NCBI RefSeq assembly: GCF_000422285.1
Contig: NZ_AULM01000018.1
Coordinates: 1 to 64,000, forward strand
Direction: 5' to 3'
Length of the DNA: 64,000 nt
From: Desulfatiglans anilini DSM 4660
GTDB lineage: Bacteria; Desulfobacterota; DSM-4660; Desulfatiglandales; Desulfatiglandaceae
A program made the position numbers and the translations under genes. Positions 30,566-43,763 of this stretch are shown one piece after another (positions within the stretch are counted from its first letter, which is position 1; each line of letters begins with the position of its first letter). The notes under the pieces were generated by a model. The model was not told the DNA's origin. It did not search any database and saw nothing but the letters and a program-made list of their open reading frames with translations.

Positions 30566-30895
30566 ATGGAGCTGATCCCTGATGATAAGCGCTATTTTCG
30601 CATCGGCGAAGCCAGTCGTATCATCGGTGTGGAGCCTCACGTCCTGCGCTATTGGGAGGGTGAATTCCCGCAGCTTCGGCCCCGGCGGGCCGACTCCAGA
30701 CAAAGGACCTATCAAAGAAAGGATCTCGAGGTCCTGCTCGAGATCAAGAAGCTGCTCTACGAAGACAAGCTCACCATAGAAGGGGCCCGCAAGCGGCTGG
30801 TCGAGGGCCCCCGCCCTCCGAAGGCCCTTGACGAGGGCTTCCTCGCCGAGCTTCAGGAGGAGCTTCGTCTGATCATCAAAATCCTCAGCACATGA
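30566..30895 (+). CDS. MerR-family transcriptional regulator
   Basis: This 109-residue protein has the MerR winged-helix start RYFRIGEASRIIGVEPHVLR, then YWEGEFPQLRPRRADSRQRT, and a short C-terminal helix (EGARKRLVEG) without a metal- or drug-binding domain. A MerR-type gene after pheT is common in proteobacteria, often with ihfA between them; ihfA is missing here. AAGGAGGG overlaps the pheT stop and gives a strong ribosome site 7 bases before ATG 30566. Its own stop overlaps the next ATG (ATGA), so it is co-translated with the cytochrome that follows. Confidence 0.88.
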   Translation: MELIPDDKRYFRIGEASRIIGVEPHVLRYWEGEFPQLRPRRADSRQRTYQRKDLEVLLEIKKLLYEDKLTIEGARKRLVEGPRPPKALDEGFLAELQEELRLIIKILST

Positions 30896-32832
30896 ATGAC
30901 CCGTCCAACGCGGCCGGCGGCAGCTCCCGCGCACCGGCCCGGCCCCTCCAAGGCGGCAGCCGTCTTTGGCGCACCGCCTGGACGCCCCTCGTTTTAACCC
31001 TGTTTGCGATCATCATCTGGAAAGGCTTTGCGAAGGAAGCGAGCCGCGTCACAGGGCCTGACGGCTGCATGAGCTGCCACGGCGAAGTGACGGATCCGGA
31101 CCCCTCCCACCCACCGGCCGCTTTTGGATGTGCGGTCTGCCATCTCGGCAATCCCTATGCGCTTGACAAAGACCGGGCCCACTTCACCATGGTGCGGAAT
31201 CCCGGCGATCTTTCGGTGGTCCCGAAGACCTGCGGAAGGGAGAAATGCCATGGGGACATCGCCCTCAGGGTGCAGAACAGCCTGATGGCTACGAACCGGG
31301 GGATCCTGAAGACCATTCAATCCCACTGGCTGAAGACGGGCGAAGCCGTGCCGGCCCTGCCGACGAGTGCGATGCTCGGCAATCCTGTGGACGGCCTTTC
31401 TGTTCCGGACCTGATGGAGGCCGGCGCCGCCCCGAATCTGGCAGTCGACCACTACCGGAAGATGTGCGCCGGCTGTCATCTCTGGAAGCCGAAATGGGAC
31501 CGGCCGGGTGAAGCCGGGCTGCGGGGCGGCGGCTGCAGCGACTGCCATGTCCGGGATGCCGCGAGGGTCCGCCTCGAATCGGCGGAGGGTAAGTATGAGC
31601 ACCCTTCCATCACCACGCGGATTCCGAGCGAGAACTGCATCAAGTGCCACAACCGTTCAGCTCGGATCGGATTGTCCTACGCCGGACGATTCGAGTCGGA
31701 GGGCTACGGCACCCCGCACCAAGGGGGGCGCCTCGGCAGCCGCACCCTGTCCGGCGGGCGGTACTTCATGGAGACGGCTCCGGACATTCATCTGAGCAAG
31801 GCAGGGATGGTCTGCATCGACTGCCACACCGCGGCGGGGCTGATGGGGGACGGAAAGATCTACGACCGGATGCGGGACCAGGTGGACATCTCCTGCCGGG
31901 ACTGCCATCGCCCGAACCTGATCGATGGCGCCGCCTCGGATGACCTGGCGCGGCGGCTCCTCGATTTGAACCGCCGGGTGCCTTCGTTCGAGGGGCGGCG
32001 CATCGGGCTGACCGCGCGGGGGAGCCCGCTTTATAACCTCCAGGCCGGGGACGGGCGGCAGGTCCTGTATCGCAAGATGGATGGCGTGCCGGTGGAGATG
32101 AAGGCCTTTGAAGACAGGAAGGCCTACCACACGCTGAAGGGCCACGAAAGGCTCTCCTGCCAGGCCTGCCACAGCGCCTGGATGCCGCAGTGCTACGGCT
32201 GCCACCTCGAATACATCCCCTCCGAACGCCAGAGGGATTGGCTGACGGGGAAGGAGAGCGACGGCGGTTGGTACGAGAGCCGGTCCTACATGCGGTTCTC
32301 CAAACCGACTCTCGGAGTCGTGAAGGATTCCGGACGCATCTACCCCGCAACGCCGTGCCAGGTGTTCGCCTTGTTCGGTCCGCGTGCGGAAGGGGAAGAG
32401 GCCGGGTATTTGCGGAGCCTGAGTCTGAGCGGCTTCGATCCGCATACGACCGCCGCGGCGGCGCGCGACTGCATTGCGTGCCACGCGGACCCGAAGGCCC
32501 TGGGCCTGGGGGAGGGGGTGATCTACCGGCGGGAGGGGCGATGGGCCTTCAGGGCGATATCCGGCGGCGGTCCGGGCTCTTTGACAGCCCCGCTCCCGCT
32601 CGACGGGTTTACGACCCTTGGGGGCGCGGATGCCGCACCCTATCGGGGCGGCACGCGGCCTTTCAACGGCGTGGAACTGGAGCGCATCCTCGCGGTCGGC
32701 CTTTGTTTAGGCTGCCATCGGACCTACGAGGACCCGATTTACGGCGATTTCAAGCAGTCGAAGGAGCGCTTCGGCCGGGAGGAAGGGCTGCCGTGCAGAG
32801 GCGGGGCTCCGGGGGGCCGAGCATGCAGGTAG
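30892..32832 (+). CDS. membrane-anchored multiheme cytochrome c (12 haem motifs)
   Basis: This 646-residue protein has an uncleaved anchor (about residues 29-47, LVLTLFAIIIW). The rest should be periplasmic. I count eleven CxxCH motifs (CMSCH, CAVCH, CAGCH, CSDCH, CIKCH, CIDCH, CRDCH, CQACH, CYGCH, CIACH, CLGCH) plus one CGREKCH that could bind an unusual CX4CH haem, hence up to twelve c-type haems. I recognise no named family; it does not show features of NrfA or hydroxylamine oxidoreductase. It is homologous to the next gene. The ATG overlaps the merR stop, and the gene's last 10 bases overlap the next start. A role in periplasmic electron transfer is inferred. Confidence 0.85.
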   Translation: MNDPSNAAGGSSRAPARPLQGGSRLWRTAWTPLVLTLFAIIIWKGFAKEASRVTGPDGCMSCHGEVTDPDPSHPPAAFGCAVCHLGNPYALDKDRAHFTMVRNPGDLSVVPKTCGREKCHGDIALRVQNSLMATNRGILKTIQSHWLKTGEAVPALPTSAMLGNPVDGLSVPDLMEAGAAPNLAVDHYRKMCAGCHLWKPKWDRPGEAGLRGGGCSDCHVRDAARVRLESAEGKYEHPSITTRIPSENCIKCHNRSARIGLSYAGRFESEGYGTPHQGGRLGSRTLSGGRYFMETAPDIHLSKAGMVCIDCHTAAGLMGDGKIYDRMRDQVDISCRDCHRPNLIDGAASDDLARRLLDLNRRVPSFEGRRIGLTARGSPLYNLQAGDGRQVLYRKMDGVPVEMKAFEDRKAYHTLKGHERLSCQACHSAWMPQCYGCHLEYIPSERQRDWLTGKESDGGWYESRSYMRFSKPTLGVVKDSGRIYPATPCQVFALFGPRAEGEEAGYLRSLSLSGFDPHTTAAAARDCIACHADPKALGLGEGVIYRREGRWAFRAISGGGPGSLTAPLPLDGFTTLGGADAAPYRGGTRPFNGVELERILAVGLCLGCHRTYEDPIYGDFKQSKERFGREEGLPCRGGAPGGRACR

Positions 32833-34697
32833 CTTTGGTTCTGCGGCTGGCTGTGGCGGTGGTTTTCTGCATCCCCGCTGCGGCCAAGGGGGCCGTCGGC
32901 GCCCCGGACGGCTTTCGCCGCTGCCTTGAATGCCATTCCGGGATCGAACGGCTCGACGAGCGCCACGACTTCGAGTGCGGCGTTTGCCATCTGCATGCGG
33001 AGGACCGTGCGGCCGCCCCGCTTGCCTCCCACGAGGCCGTGATCCGCAATCCGTCCGACCCGTCCCATGCCGATGCTTCCTGCGGGGGATGCCACCGGGA
33101 GGAGATCGCGCGGCTGCGGCAATCGCTGCACGGGACCCTCGCCGGGATCATCAACCAGACCCGCTTTCTCTGGGGCGCGCAGAGTGCCGCCGAACCGCCG
33201 GTTTACGGCATGGGAGGGGGCCTCCGGCCGATCCCCGAGCCGCAGGAGGGCGGGTACGCCGGAGGCGATGACCAGTCCGTTCTGGTAGATGATTTTCTGC
33301 GCCGGCGCTGCCTCGGCTGTCATATCGGCACACAGGGGCCTTCGGGCTACGGCCTGCACCGCGGAACGGGCTGCGCCGCGTGCCATGTCCCTCATGACGC
33401 CTCCGGACGGTACAAAGGAAATGACCCTGTCCTGGACCGCGGTCGTACAGGATATGCAGCCAGACACGTCTTCGAGCGCCCGATCCCAAACGAGAGGTGT
33501 CTGCGCTGTCATCGACGCAATCATACAGGGGCGGATTACGAGGGGCTTTTCGAGCGGGATCTGAGCCGGGTCTACCGGCCGCATGGCTTTGGCGAGCCGT
33601 TGGCGGTGAATCCTGCCGAGCCGGGATATCATCAACTTGCGAAGGATGTGCATGCCGAAAGAGGGATGCTCTGTGTGGATTGTCACGGGAGCGGGGAAGT
33701 CATGGGCGACGGCGGAGTCTATGCCTCTCAAAGGGTGTCTCCCGGCCGCGGGTGTGAGGACTGCCACGGCGGCTGGGAGAAGGCCGCAACCCGGGGTGAC
33801 ATCCCAGCGGGCGTAAAGCGGTTCGAGGTTTCGGGGGGCATTCATGAGAAGGAGGATCGAGCGACTCCTGCCCATGAAAACCAAGGAACGGCGGAACCGG
33901 ATAAACGCAGCGTCTTCAACAGCAAGGGAGGAGGCGGCAGACGAAATCTTCCCCTGTTCGACCGAACGGTGCCTGCCCACGAAGTTTCGGGGCACCGGCG
34001 GGTGCGTTGCAGTGCGTGCCATGCGCAGTGGTCTTTTCAGGACTACGGCTTGAGCGTGGTTCGGCTGGATCTCCTTTCCGGAGAGGACTGGCGCAGGCTG
34101 ACGGCACAGGGAGATCCGGATCTGCAGGACGTGCTGGAGGCCCACCTCGCACAGCGGGGCGGAACGACTCATCCGGAATCCCTCGACCGGCTGAGCGGGC
34201 GGGTCCGCCCTGGGATCTGGTTGACGGGGTGGCGTTTCAGACGATGGGAATGGCTGCCCCTGGGCGTGGATCACGAGGGGCGCATCTGCGTGATGCGGCC
34301 GCGCCATCAGTACCTGGTGAGTTATGTGGATCGAAGCGGGAATGTGCAGCTTGACAGTGTCATTCCACGAAGAGGGGACGGGTCGGGCAGAGGATGGGCG
34401 TTCATGCCCTACGTCCCGCACACGGTCGGGCCGGTCGGCCGGCCCTGCGAGGCATGCCATCTGAACCGCGTCTCGGCGGGCTTGGGGGTGGAGGCGGACC
34501 CGACCATCGACACCGTTTTGACGAAGGTCTCCGAGCCCGCGCTCAAGCGCTTCCGCCTGCTTGACCTGCGGGAGATCGAAGCCCTTATGAACCCGCCCGA
34601 GGAATGGGGCGGGATCCGCCTGAGGGCGCTCGGCTGTGGGCAGGACCTCCTGGCCCCGACAAACCCCTCCGGTTCAAGTGAAGAGGACGGCCGGTGA
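32823..34697 (+). CDS. periplasmic multiheme cytochrome c (10 haem motifs)
   Basis: This 624-residue protein has a signal peptide (MQVALVLRLAVAVVFCIPAA, then AKGAVGA). It contains ten CxxCH motifs: CLECH, CGVCH, CGGCH, CLGCH, CAACH, CLRCH, CVDCH, CEDCH, CSACH, CEACH. The order and spacing follow the upstream cytochrome; for example GMLCVDCHGSGEVMGDG matches GMVCIDCHTAAGLMGDG. Two haem sites of the paralogue are missing: its CYGCH corresponds to DYGLS here, and its last CLGCH has no counterpart. The start at 32823 lies inside the preceding gene (10-base overlap), so the two are coupled and probably form one complex. The partner oxidase or reductase is unknown. Confidence 0.85.
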   Translation: MQVALVLRLAVAVVFCIPAAAKGAVGAPDGFRRCLECHSGIERLDERHDFECGVCHLHAEDRAAAPLASHEAVIRNPSDPSHADASCGGCHREEIARLRQSLHGTLAGIINQTRFLWGAQSAAEPPVYGMGGGLRPIPEPQEGGYAGGDDQSVLVDDFLRRRCLGCHIGTQGPSGYGLHRGTGCAACHVPHDASGRYKGNDPVLDRGRTGYAARHVFERPIPNERCLRCHRRNHTGADYEGLFERDLSRVYRPHGFGEPLAVNPAEPGYHQLAKDVHAERGMLCVDCHGSGEVMGDGGVYASQRVSPGRGCEDCHGGWEKAATRGDIPAGVKRFEVSGGIHEKEDRATPAHENQGTAEPDKRSVFNSKGGGGRRNLPLFDRTVPAHEVSGHRRVRCSACHAQWSFQDYGLSVVRLDLLSGEDWRRLTAQGDPDLQDVLEAHLAQRGGTTHPESLDRLSGRVRPGIWLTGWRFRRWEWLPLGVDHEGRICVMRPRHQYLVSYVDRSGNVQLDSVIPRRGDGSGRGWAFMPYVPHTVGPVGRPCEACHLNRVSAGLGVEADPTIDTVLTKVSEPALKRFRLLDLREIEALMNPPEEWGGIRLRALGCGQDLLAPTNPSGSSEEDGR

Positions 34698-36643: not shown

Positions 36644-37120
36644 ATGGCGATTGAACAAGGGGTCGTCGAGCAGGTTTCGGATGCGCAGGCCCATATCCGG
36701 ATGCAGCGGAGCCCGGCTTGCGCAAGCTGCGGTTCGCGGCACATGTGCTACAGCGATTCGAATGAAGATCTGCTCGTCGAAATCGACAATACACTGAAGG
36801 CCAAGGTAGGGGACCGCGTGGAGGTCAGCATGCCCACAGGATCGCTGTTGCGGCTGTCAGTGCTGGTTTACTGCGGTCCGATCCTGGCGATGATAGCTGG
36901 GGCCTATGTGGGGCAGACCTGGGCAGAAGCGCTGGGCGCCGAGCCCACTCCAGCCTCGATCCTTGGAGGGATCATTGCGTTGACTGCGGCCTTCATCGGC
37001 CTCAAGCGCTACGATCGAGCCGCGAAGGCAAAAGGGCGGTTCCTCCCCAAAATGACCCGTATCCTGCCTGGCCAGCCGGCTATCGACTGCCCAGTGACGC
37101 CTCCCGCCGATAACAGATAA
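36644..37120 (+). CDS. rseC: RseC/MucC-family membrane protein
   Basis: This 158-residue protein has an N-terminal domain with a cysteine cluster (ACASCGSRHMC, about residues 25-36), then two membrane segments (about 68-90 and 101-120) and a basic tail. The pattern is that of RseC (SoxR-reducing system) proteins, which accompany Rsx/Rnf complexes and may help insert or reduce their Fe-S or flavin parts. It lies beside the rnf operon on the opposite strand, and its last 41 bases overlap the 3' end of rnfB. The assignment rests on the Cys cluster, topology and location. Confidence 0.82.
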   Translation: MAIEQGVVEQVSDAQAHIRMQRSPACASCGSRHMCYSDSNEDLLVEIDNTLKAKVGDRVEVSMPTGSLLRLSVLVYCGPILAMIAGAYVGQTWAEALGAEPTPASILGGIIALTAAFIGLKRYDRAAKAKGRFLPKMTRILPGQPAIDCPVTPPADNR

Positions 37121-39149
37121 GCCCGCACTGCAGACAGCGGCCGGCCTCCGTCCGCGCCTGCTCCTCGCTGTAACCGAGGGCGATTTCAGCCGACGGATCG
37201 TTCACGAGTTCCTGGGGCGGTCTCTCGGGCATCCTCTCACGCGGGGCTGAACTTACGGGTTCCAACTGGTCGAGGCTCAGCACCCGCGTATCCTGGCGGA
37301 TCATATGGGCAGGGGCGATGACCTGCTCGGCATTCAGGAAGTGGTGAAGGGATGAAGCAGCGCGCCGCCCAGCGCCGATGGCCTCTACAACGGCCTTGTA
37401 GTCGCTCGTCACTTCCCCGGGCCGGAATATGCCGATGTCTTCCTTCGCAAACGGACTGGCGTAAGGGAAAAGGGTTTCCCACTTGACCGCGGTGGATGCG
37501 CTCGTTGAGGCCTCTCCCTCGGAGGGCTGCTTGACGTATATCAGTTCCGGGAAACGGCCGGCACCGACGATGATCGTGTCGATCTGAAGCATGATGGGCT
37601 CGCTGACGCCCTCGGCGCCGTCCATGTTCGGGGTGATCTCGGCCTGCGTCAGACGGTCTCCCTCACCGATCATGCGAGTCAGCGCGCTCCCATGATAGAA
37701 CCTGACACCCTGCTCCCGGGCCTTGTTCAGCAGATCAGCCGGGTAATGGGTGTTCTCCTGGGTGGTGCGGACCACGAGATAGACCTCGTCGGTCCCCTGT
37801 TCTTTGCATGTGAGGGCCATCTGTATCGCGGCGCGGCCCCCGCCGAGGATCATGACGCGATTGCCGCATTGGAACGGCTCCCCGGCTTGGGCACGCAGCG
37901 CCAGATCGATCAGGAGCCGTACGCCCGGAAGAGGCGTGAGCGGCGCTTCCGGGCGGCGCTCCGTCAACTGGGTGTCCCATCCGCCGGTGGCGATGACGAC
38001 GGCTTCATACCCCTCCGCCATGAGGGAGGAAACGGTAAAGTCGGAGCCTAGGCGTTCCCCCGTATGGGCCGCAATCCCGGCGTCGAGGATGCCGTCGATT
38101 TCCCAGTCCAGGACGTCTCTCGGGAGGCGGTTCTCGGGCAGACCGATCCTCAAGAGACCGCCGAGCACATCTTTCGATTCGAAAACGGCGGCGTCGTGTC
38201 CGAGGCGGTTGATGAGATAGGCCGCTGTCAGGCCTTCGGCTCCGCCGCCGATGACCGCAATGCGATGGCCGGTTTCGGGCGCCCTTGGCACATGGACCCT
38301 TTCACCGGAACGTCTCTCGTAATCGGAGGCAAAGCGCTTGAGGTGGTTGATGGCCACCGGTTCGTCGACCAGATTCCTCCGGCATTCGAATTCACAGGGA
38401 TGCACGCAGATCCGCCCGCAGACCGCAGGGAAAGGATTGGTCCTCTTGATGGTCCGGACCGCTTCGAGGTATTCCCCGTCGCGGATCTGACGGATATAGA
38501 CCGGAATATCGATGCCGGCCGGGCAGGCGCGTTGGCACGGGGCCGTGCATTCATCGGTGATGTATTCGTGGAGGATTCGGCGGGTGTTGGAACTGAGCGT
38601 GATGATCCCTTTGGGGCATACGCGCTCGCAGGTTCCGCACCCCGTGCAGCGCGTCAGGTCGACGACGGGAAGATTGTCTTCGCCCATGGAGAGGGCGTTG
38701 AAGGGACAGGCCCGGACGCAGGTGCCGAGACCGAGGCAGCCGACCGGGCAGATCTTCGAACCTCCGTTCAGGAGAACCGCGGCCCGGCAGTCCTGGATGC
38801 CGTCGTAAAGATATTTGAGATCGGCCTTGTCCCACCCGTAGGTGCACCCGGGCTTGGCCAGGTCCGGTTCGCGGGCGGTCACGGAGACGCCGAGGATCCG
38901 GGCGATCTCCTGGGCCAGCTCCTCACCGCCGGCGACGCAGGAACTGGGCGACGATTCACCCGCAACGATGGCAGCAGCGTTCGCACCGCATCCCGGGTAG
39001 CCGCAGCCGCCGCAGTTCGCGCCGGGCAGGGCTTCACTGACAGCCTCGACCTTCGGGTCTACGTAGACGTAAAAAATCTTGGATGCAGCGGCAAGGCCGG
39101 CGCCGCAGAGCAAGCCCAATCCGCCCAAGAGTAATAGACCGCCAAGCAT
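37080..39149 (-). CDS. rnfB: RnfB fused to a GltD-like FAD/NAD(P) oxidoreductase
   Basis: RnfB carries the Fe-S chain of the Rnf ferredoxin:acceptor oxidoreductase. Residues 1-190 are normal RnfB: membrane helix, CGGCGYPGC cluster domain (Cys46, 49, 54, 71) and two 4Fe-4S motifs (CLGLGTCVRACP, CTGCGTCERVCP). Instead of ending there, the 689-residue protein continues as a glutamate-synthase small-subunit-like module. This has its own cysteine region (CTAPCQRACPAGIDIPVYIR, Cys201 onward), FAD site IAVIGGGAEGLTAA (297-310), NAD(P) site VMILGGGRAA (432-441) and a late CLQCGLIC. The reading frame is continuous. GAGGAGG precedes the ATG. The fusion suggests that pyridine nucleotide reacts on RnfB itself. 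Confidence 0.93.
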   Translation of the reverse strand: MLGGLLLLGGLGLLCGAGLAAASKIFYVYVDPKVEAVSEALPGANCGGCGYPGCGANAAAIVAGESSPSSCVAGGEELAQEIARILGVSVTAREPDLAKPGCTYGWDKADLKYLYDGIQDCRAAVLLNGGSKICPVGCLGLGTCVRACPFNALSMGEDNLPVVDLTRCTGCGTCERVCPKGIITLSSNTRRILHEYITDECTAPCQRACPAGIDIPVYIRQIRDGEYLEAVRTIKRTNPFPAVCGRICVHPCEFECRRNLVDEPVAINHLKRFASDYERRSGERVHVPRAPETGHRIAVIGGGAEGLTAAYLINRLGHDAAVFESKDVLGGLLRIGLPENRLPRDVLDWEIDGILDAGIAAHTGERLGSDFTVSSLMAEGYEAVVIATGGWDTQLTERRPEAPLTPLPGVRLLIDLALRAQAGEPFQCGNRVMILGGGRAAIQMALTCKEQGTDEVYLVVRTTQENTHYPADLLNKAREQGVRFYHGSALTRMIGEGDRLTQAEITPNMDGAEGVSEPIMLQIDTIIVGAGRFPELIYVKQPSEGEASTSASTAVKWETLFPYASPFAKEDIGIFRPGEVTSDYKAVVEAIGAGRRAASSLHHFLNAEQVIAPAHMIRQDTRVLSLDQLEPVSSAPRERMPERPPQELVNDPSAEIALGYSEEQARTEAGRCLQCGLICYRREASLGSR

Positions 39150-39273: not shown

Positions 39274-39849
39274 CTAAACCATCCCCTTGAAGGCCAGAAA
39301 AGCCAGGGACAGAAGTCCGGCTGTCACGAGCCCGATCGAGGTGTCTTGCAGGGGCCGGGGAACGCGGGCGAGCAGGATTCGTTCACGCAGCCCCGCAAAA
39401 AGGACGAGGGCCAGGCCGAAACCCGCCGCGTAGGAGAAGGAAGACACCAGCGTCTGCATGAAGGTGTATTCCTCTTTGATGTTGATGAGACAGGCACCCA
39501 TCACGGCGCAGTTTGTCGTGATCAAGGGCAGAAAGATGCCGAGCCCGGCGTAAAGGGCAGGGATGCTTTTCCTCAGGAACATCTCGACGAATTGGACCAG
39601 GGAGGCAATCACCAGGATGAAAGCGATGGTCCTCAGAAATCCGAAGCCGTAGGGTCTCAAAAGGAAGTATTCGACCACCCAGGTGATGGCGCCAGCCATG
39701 ACAAGGACGAAGATAACGGCCATGGCCATGCCGACGGCGGTCTCCATCTTCTTGGATGTCCCCAGAAAGGGGCAGTTGCCCAGGTACTGCGCCAGCAGGA
39801 TGTTGTTCACAAAAATGCAGCTGATCGCCAGCAGGATGTAGTCGCCCAT
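39274..39849 (-). CDS. rnfA: Rnf complex subunit RnfA
   Basis: This 191-residue integral membrane protein has six hydrophobic segments. It carries the paired cysteine motifs of RnfA/NqrE proteins (YLGNCPFLGTSKKM and ITTNCAVMG), which in the NQR/Rnf family hold an intramembrane Fe-S centre together with RnfE. It ends GLLSLAFLAFKGMV. It follows rnfE by 42 bases and precedes rnfB by 124 bases in the order C-D-G-E-A-B. Length and motifs are normal. Confidence 0.95.
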   Translation of the reverse strand: MGDYILLAISCIFVNNILLAQYLGNCPFLGTSKKMETAVGMAMAVIFVLVMAGAITWVVEYFLLRPYGFGFLRTIAFILVIASLVQFVEMFLRKSIPALYAGLGIFLPLITTNCAVMGACLINIKEEYTFMQTLVSSFSYAAGFGLALVLFAGLRERILLARVPRPLQDTSIGLVTAGLLSLAFLAFKGMV

Positions 39850-39891: not shown

Positions 39892-40485
39892 CTATTTTTT
39901 GCCCAGCATGTTCATTCCCGCAAGCATGAGGCCGAGGCACACAAAGGCCCCGGGAGCTTGCACCATAAAGGTGAAGGGCTGGAAAGAGGGGCCGAAAAGC
40001 GGGATATTGTAAAAGGTCCCGTTCCCGAGTATCTCCCTGAGAGCAGCGAGGGCGGCGAGGGAAAGGGTAAAGCCGATACCGATCCCGAGTCCGTCGGCGA
40101 GAGAAGGGAGGAGCTTGTTTTTGAAGGCAAAGGCCTCTGCACGACCGAGAACGATGCAGTTCACCACGATCAGGGGGATAAAGATGCCCAACTGCAGGAA
40201 CAGGGGATAAGTGAAAGCCTGCATGAGCAACTCGACGACGGTGACGAAGGTGGCGATAACGACGATAAAACAGGCGATTCGAACCTGCTTCGGGATGACG
40301 TTTCGAAGAAGGGACACGAGGATATTGGAGCACACGAGCACGAAGGTCGTGGCGATGCCCATGCCGATGCCGCCGTCTACGGACTTGGTTACAGCCAGTG
40401 TGGGACAAAGGCCGAGGACCAGCCGGAAGGGCGGAATCTCAGCCCAAAGCCCTTTGGTAAATTCCTGGACAACTGTTTTTGCCAT
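39892..40485 (-). CDS. rnfE: Rnf complex subunit RnfE
   Basis: This 197-residue membrane protein is a relative of RnfA with inverted topology. The conserved cysteine motifs are in LVLGLCPTLAVTKSVDGGIG and IVVNCIVLGRAEAFA, and the usual six segments are present. The start MAKTVVQEFTKGLWAEIPPF is typical of RnfE. Together with RnfA it forms the membrane core thought to carry electrons across the membrane. It lies 18 bases after rnfG. Confidence 0.95.
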   Translation of the reverse strand: MAKTVVQEFTKGLWAEIPPFRLVLGLCPTLAVTKSVDGGIGMGIATTFVLVCSNILVSLLRNVIPKQVRIACFIVVIATFVTVVELLMQAFTYPLFLQLGIFIPLIVVNCIVLGRAEAFAFKNKLLPSLADGLGIGIGFTLSLAALAALREILGNGTFYNIPLFGPSFQPFTFMVQAPGAFVCLGLMLAGMNMLGKK

Positions 40486-40503: not shown

Positions 40504-41088
40504 TTACGCCTGCATCTTCTTCACGATTTCGGATTTCAAACGCTGATAGATTTGACCAGCCGCATCGACAGCGGTTGCAACGCCTTTGGACGAGACGGTT
40601 GCACCGCTGATGGCGTCCACCTTCCCGCCGTCAGACTTGACCTTGAAGGTCTGGGCGATGTCCAGACCCTGGAACTGCCGGCTGAAGGCCTTGTCGGTTT
40701 TTGCCCGTGAGCCGATACCGGGCGTTTCACTGTGAGTGGTCACCCCGATGCCGACGATCTTGTCGGTTTCAACATTGACGGCCACCATCACGCCGATGTC
40801 GCCGCCGAAGCCGCCGCCGTAGGTTTCGAAGGCGACCGTGTCAGGCTTCCCATCGAACTTGCCGATAAAGAAGCTTCTTTCCGTTTCGCCGTCCTGGAGT
40901 TTGAAGCGGTCGATGAGGGGATCGTTGGTGCAACCGTCGAGGATCTCCATGATGGCCGGTCCCTTGACGAACAGCAGTTGCTGGTACTCGATCCGGTCTT
41001 TGGTGCTGTTCTGCAAGGCGGTCAGGAGGCCGCCGGCAAGGGCGCTGAATATCACAACCGAAAGGAAAAGCCTCAGCATTTCACGCAT
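40504..41088 (-). CDS. rnfG: Rnf complex subunit RnfG, covalent flavoprotein
   Basis: This 194-residue protein has one N-terminal membrane segment (LFLSVVIFSALAGGLLTAL) and an extracytoplasmic FMN-binding domain. The site for covalent FMN is visible as DAISGATVSSKGVATAV, with the acceptor threonine in SGAT. The ATG at 41088 was chosen because it begins the hydrophobic anchor and overlaps the rnfD stop by 8 bases; the longer frame upstream reads through rnfD. The GGDIGVMVAVNVETDKIVGI segment is standard for RnfG/NqrC. Operon position is third. Confidence 0.93.
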   Translation of the reverse strand: MREMLRLFLSVVIFSALAGGLLTALQNSTKDRIEYQQLLFVKGPAIMEILDGCTNDPLIDRFKLQDGETERSFFIGKFDGKPDTVAFETYGGGFGGDIGVMVAVNVETDKIVGIGVTTHSETPGIGSRAKTDKAFSRQFQGLDIAQTFKVKSDGGKVDAISGATVSSKGVATAVDAAGQIYQRLKSEIVKKMQA

Positions 41089-42049
41089 TTTGAATATCCC
41101 TCCCCATCGCTTTGGGTCTGATCTTGTCGAGCAGCGGGTTTGCGGCATTCAAGAGGAGAACGGCGAAGACCACTCCGTCGACGAAGGCCCCGATGTTGCG
41201 GATCAGGACGGTCATGACACCGCCGGCCAGGCCGTATATGAGCATGGGTACGAAATTGATTGGAGATGAGGAATCTTCGGTCGCAAGGAAGAAGGCCCCG
41301 ATCAGCGTGTAGCCGGTAAGCAGGTGGAAGAGGGGCGGGGCGTACTTCTCCGCGTCGCTCAGGTTGAACAAAAGGGCCGCCAGGAAAACGCCCACGAGGA
41401 ACGAAACAGCGATTTCCCAGCGGATGAATCCGCGCAGGATCAGATAGATGCCTCCGATGATCAACCCGAGGCCGAATGTGGCCCCGATCGCACCGGATTG
41501 GCCTGCCATGAGAAACCCCGTGACATCGTAGTCCGCAGCGGCGCCCGCCCCAAGGAATTTGACGGCGCTCAGGGGATAGATCATGTTGAAACCGAGATTG
41601 TAGTCAACCAGGGCGGCGTTGAATTCGACCAGGGATTTCCAGGAGAGCATCAGGATGGCCAACCCGACCAGGGGCGGATTGAGGGGGTTGCAGCCTACGC
41701 CGCCAAAGATCATTTTACCGATGACAACGGCCGCGAATGACCCGACGATGACAACCCACCACGTGACCCCGGCAGGCAACAACATGCCGAGGATCATCCC
41801 GATCACGGCGGCATCCAGATCTCCGATACTCACAGGGCGGCGGGCTGCGAGGTTGAAGAGCCACTCCCAGATCATAGCTGAGGCGACGCTCAGCGCCAGC
41901 ACGGCCAGGGCGGGGATCCCGTACTGGTAAACGCCCATGGCGACCGCAGGCAAGGCAGCCAGCAAGATGTTGGCATTCTTGTTGGAGAGGCTGCTGCCGT
42001 TGTGCCAGAAGGGGGCATGCGAGCCGACTAAGAGTTTCTGGTTAAGCAT
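41081..42049 (-). CDS. rnfD: Rnf complex subunit RnfD
   Basis: This 322-residue polytopic membrane protein is related to NqrB. It has about nine hydrophobic segments and the cytoplasmic GCNPLNPPLVGLAIL motif. The flavin-site region reads QSGAIGATFGLG, keeping a GAT sequence like that which takes covalent FMN in the family, although the surrounding residues differ from the textbook SGATPL. Its start overlaps the rnfC stop by 8 bases and its stop overlaps rnfG by 8 bases, so C, D and G are translationally coupled. Confidence 0.93.
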   Translation of the reverse strand: MLNQKLLVGSHAPFWHNGSSLSNKNANILLAALPAVAMGVYQYGIPALAVLALSVASAMIWEWLFNLAARRPVSIGDLDAAVIGMILGMLLPAGVTWWVVIVGSFAAVVIGKMIFGGVGCNPLNPPLVGLAILMLSWKSLVEFNAALVDYNLGFNMIYPLSAVKFLGAGAAADYDVTGFLMAGQSGAIGATFGLGLIIGGIYLILRGFIRWEIAVSFLVGVFLAALLFNLSDAEKYAPPLFHLLTGYTLIGAFFLATEDSSSPINFVPMLIYGLAGGVMTVLIRNIGAFVDGVVFAVLLLNAANPLLDKIRPKAMGRDIQNA

Positions 42050-43322
42050 GGGCTTCCTCCTCGCCCCTCATCTGGGCAATCTCGTATTTGCCGAGCATGA
42101 TGTAGTGAAAGAGCGGGATATGAGCGATGCAGACATAGCTGCAAAGGCCGCACTCGATGCAGGAGAAGAGGTCCCAGTCCCGTTCGGCCTCATCGTAGAG
42201 TCTGTTTTCGAGAAAACGGACCAGCATGTTCACTGGTATTCTTGCAGGGCAGACACGAACACATTCCCCGCAGTTCACACAATGCGTGTCATCTGCACTC
42301 TTGACCTGCAGTTTGTCCTGCAGGAGAAGACCGGTTGTGCTCAGGAGGATTGGAAAATCCTCGGAAAAAAGCGCCTGCCCCCGCATCAGACCGCCGCTGA
42401 TCAGCCTGTCTCCGTGTTCCGTCGAGAGTTGAAGCACCTCGAGGACATTGCGGATCGGTGCGCCGACCCGGGCCTTGACTTGATGAGGTCTCATGGTCTT
42501 ATCGAAGACGCTGAAGACCTTGTAAACCGGGATGCGCTTCAGGCTGAACGCCTCCCCCAAGAGGGCCACGGCATCAGCCGTGACGAAGACGGCGCCCGAC
42601 CCTGCCCGCTCGCCCCCGCCGGTCTTGCCGAGGAGTCTTCGTATAAGCAGGGGCTTGAGCGTCTCCGGGTAAATCGGATCGATCAGGTGGACCTCTGCCC
42701 CGGCGCGGTTCGCCGCGCCGCCGAGATCGGAGGGGGCTGCAAGGAGAACCCTGGCGGAGGGCGCCGCCCCCTTGAGCTGTGCAATGCCGTTTTTAAGGGC
42801 ATCGGCAGCGCCGGTCAAGGCATGGCGGTTGTTTGCGACGAACAGGTCATTCTCGAGGGCGCTGATGAGAATCGTCGCCGTCCGGTCATTGACGGCAGCG
42901 AGGGGTTCAAAGATATCGCCCCCCGGGAGATTGCTCAAATGGGCTACGGCGCCCTCGAAATCGCCCCGGTCGACCTTTTCGCCGAAACCGGGGTCCCATT
43001 CGTCTTCCGGTTTGATGTCCACCGCGAACGAGGTGTATTTTTGGCCCATGTATCCGGTGTATTCGTCGATCGCACGGATCGCCCCCGTGAGCGGGGAAAC
43101 CAGAAAACGCTTGTCGTCAAGGATCGATGAGAGTTTTTGCCCCGTCCTGATGGTGTCTCCAGGGCGCAGGCCGAGGGTATCCTTGAGGGGGCCCTGCTGC
43201 GGGAAAAAGAAAGTTCCGGTCTGCGGGGTGGGCATCTCCAGCGGCGCGGTGGACGCCTCGGTCCACAAAACCGGGGATTTCAGCCTGGGCTTTGTCAGGC
43301 TGAGAAAGGATCTCTTCAACAT
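42042..43322 (-). CDS. rnfC: RnfC variant lacking the usual FMN/NADH glycine motif
   Basis: This 426-residue protein starts at ATG 43322 (GGAGG upstream). The N-terminal barrel-sandwich domain is kept (LKDTLGLRPGDTIRTGQKLS, SPLTGAIRAIDEYTG). The C-terminal part has both 4Fe-4S motifs: CVNCGECVRVC (348-358) and CIECGLCSYVC (388-398). The middle still aligns with RnfC (IYPETLKPLLIRRLLG; GAVFVTADAVALLGEA). However, the stretch that normally reads like GLGGAGFPT and NGAECEPY, which binds FMN and NADH, is replaced here by LSNLPGGDIFEPLAAVNDRT and SALENDLFV. Canonical NADH oxidation at RnfC is therefore doubtful. It is preceded by a cytochrome c gene. Confidence 0.92.
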   Translation of the reverse strand: MLKRSFLSLTKPRLKSPVLWTEASTAPLEMPTPQTGTFFFPQQGPLKDTLGLRPGDTIRTGQKLSSILDDKRFLVSPLTGAIRAIDEYTGYMGQKYTSFAVDIKPEDEWDPGFGEKVDRGDFEGAVAHLSNLPGGDIFEPLAAVNDRTATILISALENDLFVANNRHALTGAADALKNGIAQLKGAAPSARVLLAAPSDLGGAANRAGAEVHLIDPIYPETLKPLLIRRLLGKTGGGERAGSGAVFVTADAVALLGEAFSLKRIPVYKVFSVFDKTMRPHQVKARVGAPIRNVLEVLQLSTEHGDRLISGGLMRGQALFSEDFPILLSTTGLLLQDKLQVKSADDTHCVNCGECVRVCPARIPVNMLVRFLENRLYDEAERDWDLFSCIECGLCSYVCIAHIPLFHYIMLGKYEIAQMRGEEEAHA

Positions 43323-43382
43323 AAACACCTCCTCACCCAATCGACGGGCAGCAAGGGTTCGCAGTGCCCGCAGCTCGAATCG

Positions 43383-43763
43383 CTACTGAAACACATGGCA
43401 TTCACCACATTCAACAGGGCCGCTGCCCCCGTCCTCATGGCACCCTTGGCACAACATGTGAAACGCATCGGACGACTTCATGGGATCCTCACTCTCAGGC
43501 TCGTGGCATTCGCTGCAACGGCCCGGGGAGGTCTCCGGGTCTTCATCCCAGGCATGATGGCAGTCGGTGCAGGCGATCCCGTATTCATCTTCCGAGGCGT
43601 GGTTCATGTGGGTGAAGAGAACGCCGCCGGCGCTGTTCTGCAGCATGATCCTCACGAGTTCATCCGGTTTCTGGTGCGCCGATGCGACGTAGGAAACGAC
43701 ACCGACGACCAGCAGTACCGCTGCAAGGCAGTAAGCGATCATTTTCTCAGATTTGGATCCCAT
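43383..43763 (-). CDS. tetraheme cytochrome c at the head of the rnf operon
   Basis: This 126-residue protein has an N-terminal signal or anchor (MIAYCLAAVLLVVGVVSYVA) and four CxxCH motifs (CTDCH, CSECH, CQGCH, CGECH), with extra histidines HMNH and CHHAWDEDP as likely axial ligands. It resembles the small class III/c7-like cytochromes. It is the first gene of the rnf operon, 60 bases before rnfC. Cytochrome genes in this position are known in Rnf clusters of sulfate reducers and some methanogens, where they link Rnf with periplasmic electron carriers. AAGGGA precedes the ATG. Confidence 0.9.
   Translation of the reverse strand: MGSKSEKMIAYCLAAVLLVVGVVSYVASAHQKPDELVRIMLQNSAGGVLFTHMNHASEDEYGIACTDCHHAWDEDPETSPGRCSECHEPESEDPMKSSDAFHMLCQGCHEDGGSGPVECGECHVFQ

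Follow-up and report, generated by a model that had tools for sequence, protein, structure and literature searches.

A D-type fused RnfB without an NADPH motif in a cytochrome-associated Rnf operon of Desulfatiglans anilini

The Rnf operon and its fused RnfB

The window analysed here is a 64,000-nucleotide stretch of the Desulfatiglans anilini DSM 4660 genome (contig NZ_AULM01000018.1, positions 1 to 64,000). Its minus strand carries an operon in the order cytc3-rnfC-D-G-E-A-B, in which the rnfABCDGE gene set that defines a canonical Rnf is complete. The opening gene encodes a tetraheme, TmcA-like cytochrome c3 (43383..43763; Pfam Cytochrom_CIII, 4.4e-11; four CxxCH motifs) with an N-terminal hydrophobic anchor, which scored 66.5 bits against the NCBIfam TmcA model, under the cut-off of 114. 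It is followed by an RnfC-like protein (42042..43340; TIGR01945, 128 bits against a cut-off of 245.95), RnfD (41081..42049; TIGR01946, 209 bits, above cut-off), RnfG (40504..41148; NF045876 RnfG_DVU2794, 243.9 bits, above cut-off), RnfE (39892..40485; TIGR01948, 245 bits) and RnfA (39274..39849; TIGR01943, 245 bits), and rnfB is the final gene. On the plus strand, an RseC/MucC homologue (36644..37120; Pfam RseC_MucC, 1.7e-31) is convergent with rnfB and overlaps its 3' end by 41 bp (37080-37120). The RseC/MucC gene is frequently retained in relatives beside RnfB of the window's type (group D, below), and the overlapping arrangement recurs, for example at locus L079. Past RseC and a peptidase-like gene, positions 30892-34697 of the plus strand contain two neighbouring ORFs for multiheme cytochromes (11 and 10 CxxCH motifs); L080 and L081 have a comparable pair close to their Rnf operon.

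The rnfB gene is a single unbroken ORF of 689 aa (37080..39149, minus strand, as are all features of the protein given below). A preliminary description of this DNA had read it as RnfB fused to a GltD-like Fe-S/FAD module, and Pfam and structure-sequence matches bear this out. Residues 1-195 match RnfB (7zc6_B, 8.6e-52; 9eri_B, 1.1e-51), and profile and structure-sequence matches assign to residues 1-190 (38580..39149) the N-terminal anchor helix and Fe-S domains of RnfB. Next come a Fer4_20 Fe-S domain containing K271 (residues 197-283; 38301..38561; Pfam match over 201-281, 3.2e-23) and a flavoprotein domain with two dinucleotide-binding parts, which spans about residues 296-610 and matches Pyr_redox_2 (296-535, 7.8e-14) and Pyr_redox (431-501, 9.3e-10). 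Pfam and motif alignment place the N-terminal half of the FAD domain, with GGGAEGL and R341, at residues 296-395 (37965..38264). Alignment further delimits a former NAD(P) domain (residues 425-535; 37545..37877), a C-terminal FAD segment in which GD is changed to GE (residues 575-612; 37314..37427) and a C-terminal cluster motif, RCLQCGLIC (residues 665-682; 37104..37157). Its cysteines C672, C675 and C679 are the counterpart of the N-terminal RCLQC segment of NfnL; 9bov and 8oh5 likewise have this segment at the C-terminus. The module most closely resembles, in sequence as well as in predicted structure, NfnA/StnC from the Stn and NfnABC transhydrogenases (9bov, 8oh5, 9n5u), with NfnL (5jca_L, 4.2e-43) and GltD coming after them. 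In the predicted model of the whole protein (mean pLDDT 74) the module is well resolved, and part of RnfB poorly. An origin of the fusion by chance or assembly artefact was rejected, as another genome of the genus carries a 97% identical copy, and most relatives have the fused protein at full length.

Loss and retention of nucleotide and flavin sites

The window RnfC has neither the GxGGxGFP FMN/NADH loop nor ECEP, so that the nucleotide site which the preliminary description considered lost is indeed absent. Two [4Fe-4S] motifs are kept (residues 354-404; 42129..42281, minus strand; invariant in 24 aligned RnfC), and the AlphaFold model (pLDDT 84) has RnfC 8ahx/9eri as its best structural matches (TM 0.76-0.77). 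A search of the D. anilini genome for RnfC_N (PF13375) hit nothing in the window, and its one weak match outside the window fell under the cut-off. A survey of relatives, of a sample of 395 genomes from the phylum and of 80 named loci yielded 109 distinct fused RnfB proteins. All 51 complete RnfC adjoining a fused RnfB lack GxGGxGFP and ECEP and carry the two cluster motifs, whereas GxGGxGFP and ECEP are both intact in each of the 18 complete RnfC from canonical operons; in the canonical operons RnfB is unfused (198-292 aa) wherever a complete RnfB lies on the contig. The separation is complete in the sample (Fisher p = 6e-17, with counts from related genomes that are not phylogenetically independent), and the pairing proposed earlier therefore holds, fused RnfB being by no means equally common beside canonical RnfC.

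It had also been proposed that the NAD(P) reaction shifted from this RnfC to the fused RnfB module, so that NAD(P)H electrons enter at RnfB. The tree of fused RnfB divides across one branch (support 100) into two groups, N (n=53) and D (n=56), and the proposal fits only the former. Group N, which has the same motif-less RnfC, keeps GGGPAGL and, in nearly all of 50 members, GGGNTAID and YRRTRxEMPA, and three N members carry an acidic, NADH-like motif. Group D, to which the window copy belongs, has GGG[AVI][EQ]GL at the FAD site and lacks YRR in 55 of its 56 members; nine operon-borne members are without GGG too, yet retain the whole Rnf operon. Conservation of the NAD(P) region has collapsed in D only: residues 425-535 show a mean pairwise identity of 0.61 among N members and 0.31 among D members, against 0.66 and 0.64 for the Fer4_20 domain.

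The window copy itself retains the GGG (436-438) and has VRT rather than YRR at 460-462. The 'GGG NAD(P) site' of the preliminary description is thus present as to its glycines, but the NADPH-site residues around them (N439, D443, R450, Y460, R462, R464) are gone. YRR binds the NADP phosphate in NfnB, and DsrL proteins without YRR use NADH (PMC7596348). NADPH use by the window RnfB is thus unlikely on sequence grounds, and the protein may still bind or use NADH because its GGG is intact. As an account of the window complex, a transfer of the NAD(P) reaction to RnfB is not supported, and overall we consider it rather unlikely.

Group D is nevertheless more than a product of decay, to judge from its alignment, because two positions near the FAD motifs are fixed: E/Q305 in 55/56 members and R532 in 56/56 (Q532 in 53/53 N), the window copy having E305 and R532. 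W557 is found in 56/56 D and 43/53 N members.

The D. anilini genome holds a second, orphan fused RnfB of type N (G000:C20:33219-35273), downstream of which lie two small ORFs resembling cyclic-nucleotide-binding regulators (L069:10451-11617). No redox genes were seen beside N-type orphans at the loci inspected. The N-type copies at L277-L281 are about 600 aa long, apparently with neither the anchor nor the first cluster domain of RnfB, and are possibly soluble. Two genomes (G030 and G033; loci L107 and L108) have cytc3-rnfCDGEA operons without rnfB and an orphan N-type fused RnfB elsewhere. One N and one D copy per genome serving a single Rnf core was rejected as a rule, many genomes having only D or only N.

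In A. woodii RnfD, T156 bears FMN covalently, and ions are proposed to pass through RnfA/E (PMC11889175). All 18 canonical RnfD carry the covalent-FMN motif [ST]xATP, whereas alignment revealed [ST]xAT at this place in 0 of 62 fused-type RnfD ('TAATA' and 'SAATP' in two of them were rejected, as both lie outside the aligned motif). The T156 column is Thr in 18/18 canonical and 5/62 fused-type proteins; Tyr is commonest in the latter, including Y158 of the window (41576..41578, minus strand; alignment to 9eri_D and column counts). Fused-type RnfD could hold FMN non-covalently. The window RnfG keeps its covalent-FMN motif SGAT (SGATVS; aligned to 8ahx_G/9eri_G), as do 55/58 fused-type RnfG by pattern match, and both [2Fe-2S] cysteines are present in RnfA and RnfE (alignments to 9eri_A and 9eri_E) and retained in fused-type operons.

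These sites bear on a second alternative, a complex of swapped polarity in which ferredoxin docks at an Fe-S-only RnfC, another carrier at RnfB, and all subunits are still traversed. The Fe-S motifs of RnfC, its predicted fold and the riboflavin Asn of RnfD (N123, in 52/62 fused-type proteins) are all consistent with such a complex. However, with the covalent-FMN motif gone from all 62 RnfD the RnfG-RnfD step would be broken unless FMN binds otherwise, and RnfC has no known ferredoxin dock, which makes this arrangement improbable.

The module has kept its Fe-S ligands. Within group D, its Fe-S cysteines, K271 and R341 are invariant, as are the cysteines of the RnfB part (46, 49, 54, 71, 102, 134, 138, 144, 148, 168, 171, 174 and 178; 56/56), while K271, R341 and the FAD glycine motif occur in 109/109 fused RnfB. 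FAD positions Y335, G336, P338 and D579 are drifting in D, with G336, P338 and D579 changed in many members, and the FAD of the D module may still work. The drift, together with the relaxed NAD(P) region, would fit a degenerating remnant without a redox role, but the invariant residues, the two fixed substitutions and the loss of the fusion in 0/56 D members make this very improbable. Least likely of all is an Nfn-like bifurcating site within Rnf, a complex that in the preliminary description was perhaps able to bifurcate electrons: NfnL homology, the FAD glycine motif and R341 would suit it, but K271 and R341 align with K170 (a cluster ligand) and R239 of StnC, whose Lys-ligated flavin does not bifurcate, whereas bifurcating NfnB has Glu at that ligand (PMC10482914), the closest structures (NfnABC/StnC) bifurcate in HydBC-type subunits, and the NADPH site is lost. 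Bifurcation at the FAD of the window RnfB is therefore unlikely, and could be located in a separate BfuBC partner instead.

A possible electron route and its published relatives

Electrons in canonical Rnf follow a U-shaped path, RnfB - RnfA/E - RnfG - RnfD - RnfC - NAD (PMC11889175). In the window complex the return limb is damaged at RnfD and RnfC, so that electrons would most likely leave from RnfG. We tentatively favour a reading in which this is a Tol2-type Rnf with electron entry at its D-type RnfB, the module there retaining Fe-S clusters and most FAD residues and no NADPH site, and with exit via RnfG to cytochrome c3. Electrons, perhaps from ferredoxin and/or BfuBC, would enter at RnfB, drive the RnfA/E ion pump, reach RnfG and pass to periplasmic cytochrome c3, the cytochrome of the operon being the candidate partner of RnfG. 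Alternatively, flow might run in reverse, powered by the ion gradient. The most speculative element is that ferredoxin and/or a BfuBC core with its own NADH/FMN site would feed group D, the module there serving as relay and docking site; for group N, the NADPH site might be the module itself.

The lost sites of RnfC and RnfD and the kept RnfG motif and RnfA/E cysteines argue for exit from RnfG, and a precedent exists in the Rnf of Methanosarcina acetivorans, which has no NAD(P) reaction and for which a step from RnfG to cytochrome c was proposed (PMC4023990). That complex likewise has a co-encoded c-type cytochrome and an RnfC with two cluster motifs; it differs in being archaeal, in its unfused RnfB and in coupling ferredoxin to methanophenazine. 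On the other side, the RnfC Fe-S motifs, invariant in 51/51, count against an exit from RnfG only, several operons of the fused type have no neighbouring cytochrome gene, and deleting the operon cytochrome gene dhcA of D. alaskensis had little effect (PMC4215793). The D. alaskensis Rnf is probably N-type, and another c3 could replace DhcA.

An Rnf variant with a large RnfB and a degenerate RnfC has already been reported, is widespread in Desulfobacterota and is not new. In the part of the account drawn on here, Desulfobacula toluolica Tol2 and Desulfococcus multivorans possess an RnfB of some 700 aa with NAD-binding sites and an RnfC without the NADH-oxidoreductase and ligand-binding (SLBB) domains, and the acceptor is called unknown (PMC5109826). 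This Rnf2 resembles the window complex in both proteins and in the cytochrome of its cluster. The difference lies in RnfB: NAD-binding sites were reported there, and the window copy, a group D protein, keeps GGG and no longer has the NADPH motif; a Desulfobacula operon copy in our survey (L182) falls in group N. The same part of that account makes no mention of RnfD motif loss or of a BfuBC link. In Desulfovibrionaceae, an rnf operon with an 'FAD-dependent oxidoreductase' in place of rnfB was described as having lost rnfB (PMC11434368). Operon position and cytochrome are the same there, and probably so is the fused gene, but the Pseudodesulfovibrio locus L185 shows that such a gene starts with RnfB. 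That a cytochrome might connect NAD(P)H/ferredoxin with the periplasmic pool was hypothesised earlier (PMC4287179).

More distant parallels concern single parts of the complex. StnC/NfnA (8oh5, 9bov, 9n5u), the nearest relatives of the module, share its Lys cluster ligand and displaced C-terminal CxxC, but are soluble, have an intact NADPH site and are fused to a NuoG-like domain rather than to RnfB. Na+-NQR likewise has an RnfC homologue, NqrA, without an NADH site, and an input module swapped at the RnfB end (PMC11889175); there, however, NqrF is an FNR-type reductase and the acceptor is quinone. Relative to the published accounts, as far as they were consulted, what is new is subgroup D with its three lost nucleotide/flavin features, and likely a new electron route.

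Annotations usually treat the Rnf of sulfate reducers as a ferredoxin:NAD+ pump, and energy models take this as their basis. If the RnfC NADH, RnfD flavin and D-type NADPH sites are all gone, a cytoplasmic donor is probably coupled to a periplasmic cytochrome. The energy balance of many Desulfobacterota would then shift, and this could help account for the failed membrane-vesicle assays of ferredoxin:NAD+ coupling in D. alaskensis (PMC4841214).

BfuBC genes in the vicinity of D-type RnfB

A strong match to BfuB (NuoF-like) lies within 9 kb of 15/55 D loci versus 0/53 N loci; the statistical test of proximity counted 16 such D loci, one of them with a weak match. At eight of the 15 loci BfuB immediately precedes the D-type gene in the same orientation, at a distance of 14-183 nt and often behind NuoE and a DRTGG gene, and in G007, G037 and G039 it stands upstream of the cytc3-rnf operon. 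D-linked BfuB form one group (support 95/93). The D. anilini genome has BfuC and BfuB without BfuA at G000:C2, about 123-126 kb, and this BfuB clusters with the copies that precede the D-type operons in G007 and G039 (96/93). By hand tally, with the top 2-3 candidates scored per genome and the genomes being related, a close stand-alone BfuB occurs in 16/28 genomes with D versus 5/367 without, a co-occurrence that is suggestive only.

From this linkage one can draw a more specific, and rather doubtful, picture of an Rnf-Bfu supercomplex. A BfuBC core would dock on D-type RnfB in the place of BfuA, and electrons of NADH and ferredoxin, confurcated or in the reverse direction, would travel by way of the RnfA/E pump and then RnfG until they reach a c-type cytochrome in the periplasm; neither RnfC nor RnfD would react with NAD any longer. 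Counting against a feed from BfuBC, its genes do not adjoin the operon in the window, and a close BfuB is missing from several D genomes (G004, G075, G197, G221, G305 and G414). In the part of the Bfu literature considered here, cores without BfuA and with a third substrate given as unknown are reported, to which the BfuBC core beside D-type RnfB bears a likeness, and no Rnf-linked Bfu is described (PMC9304861). D-type RnfB is a possible partner for such BfuA-less bifurcating cores.

In a D subgroup without GGG, rnfB is followed by a fusion of a NuoG/Fdh-like protein with NuoE and then by a NuoF-GltD fusion. At L089, L091 and L096, the gene right after this rnfB encodes a molybdopterin/NuoG-like protein of 970-993 aa with a NuoE end, and the next a NuoF-GltD fusion of about 1000 aa, whose NADPH motif is intact in L089.
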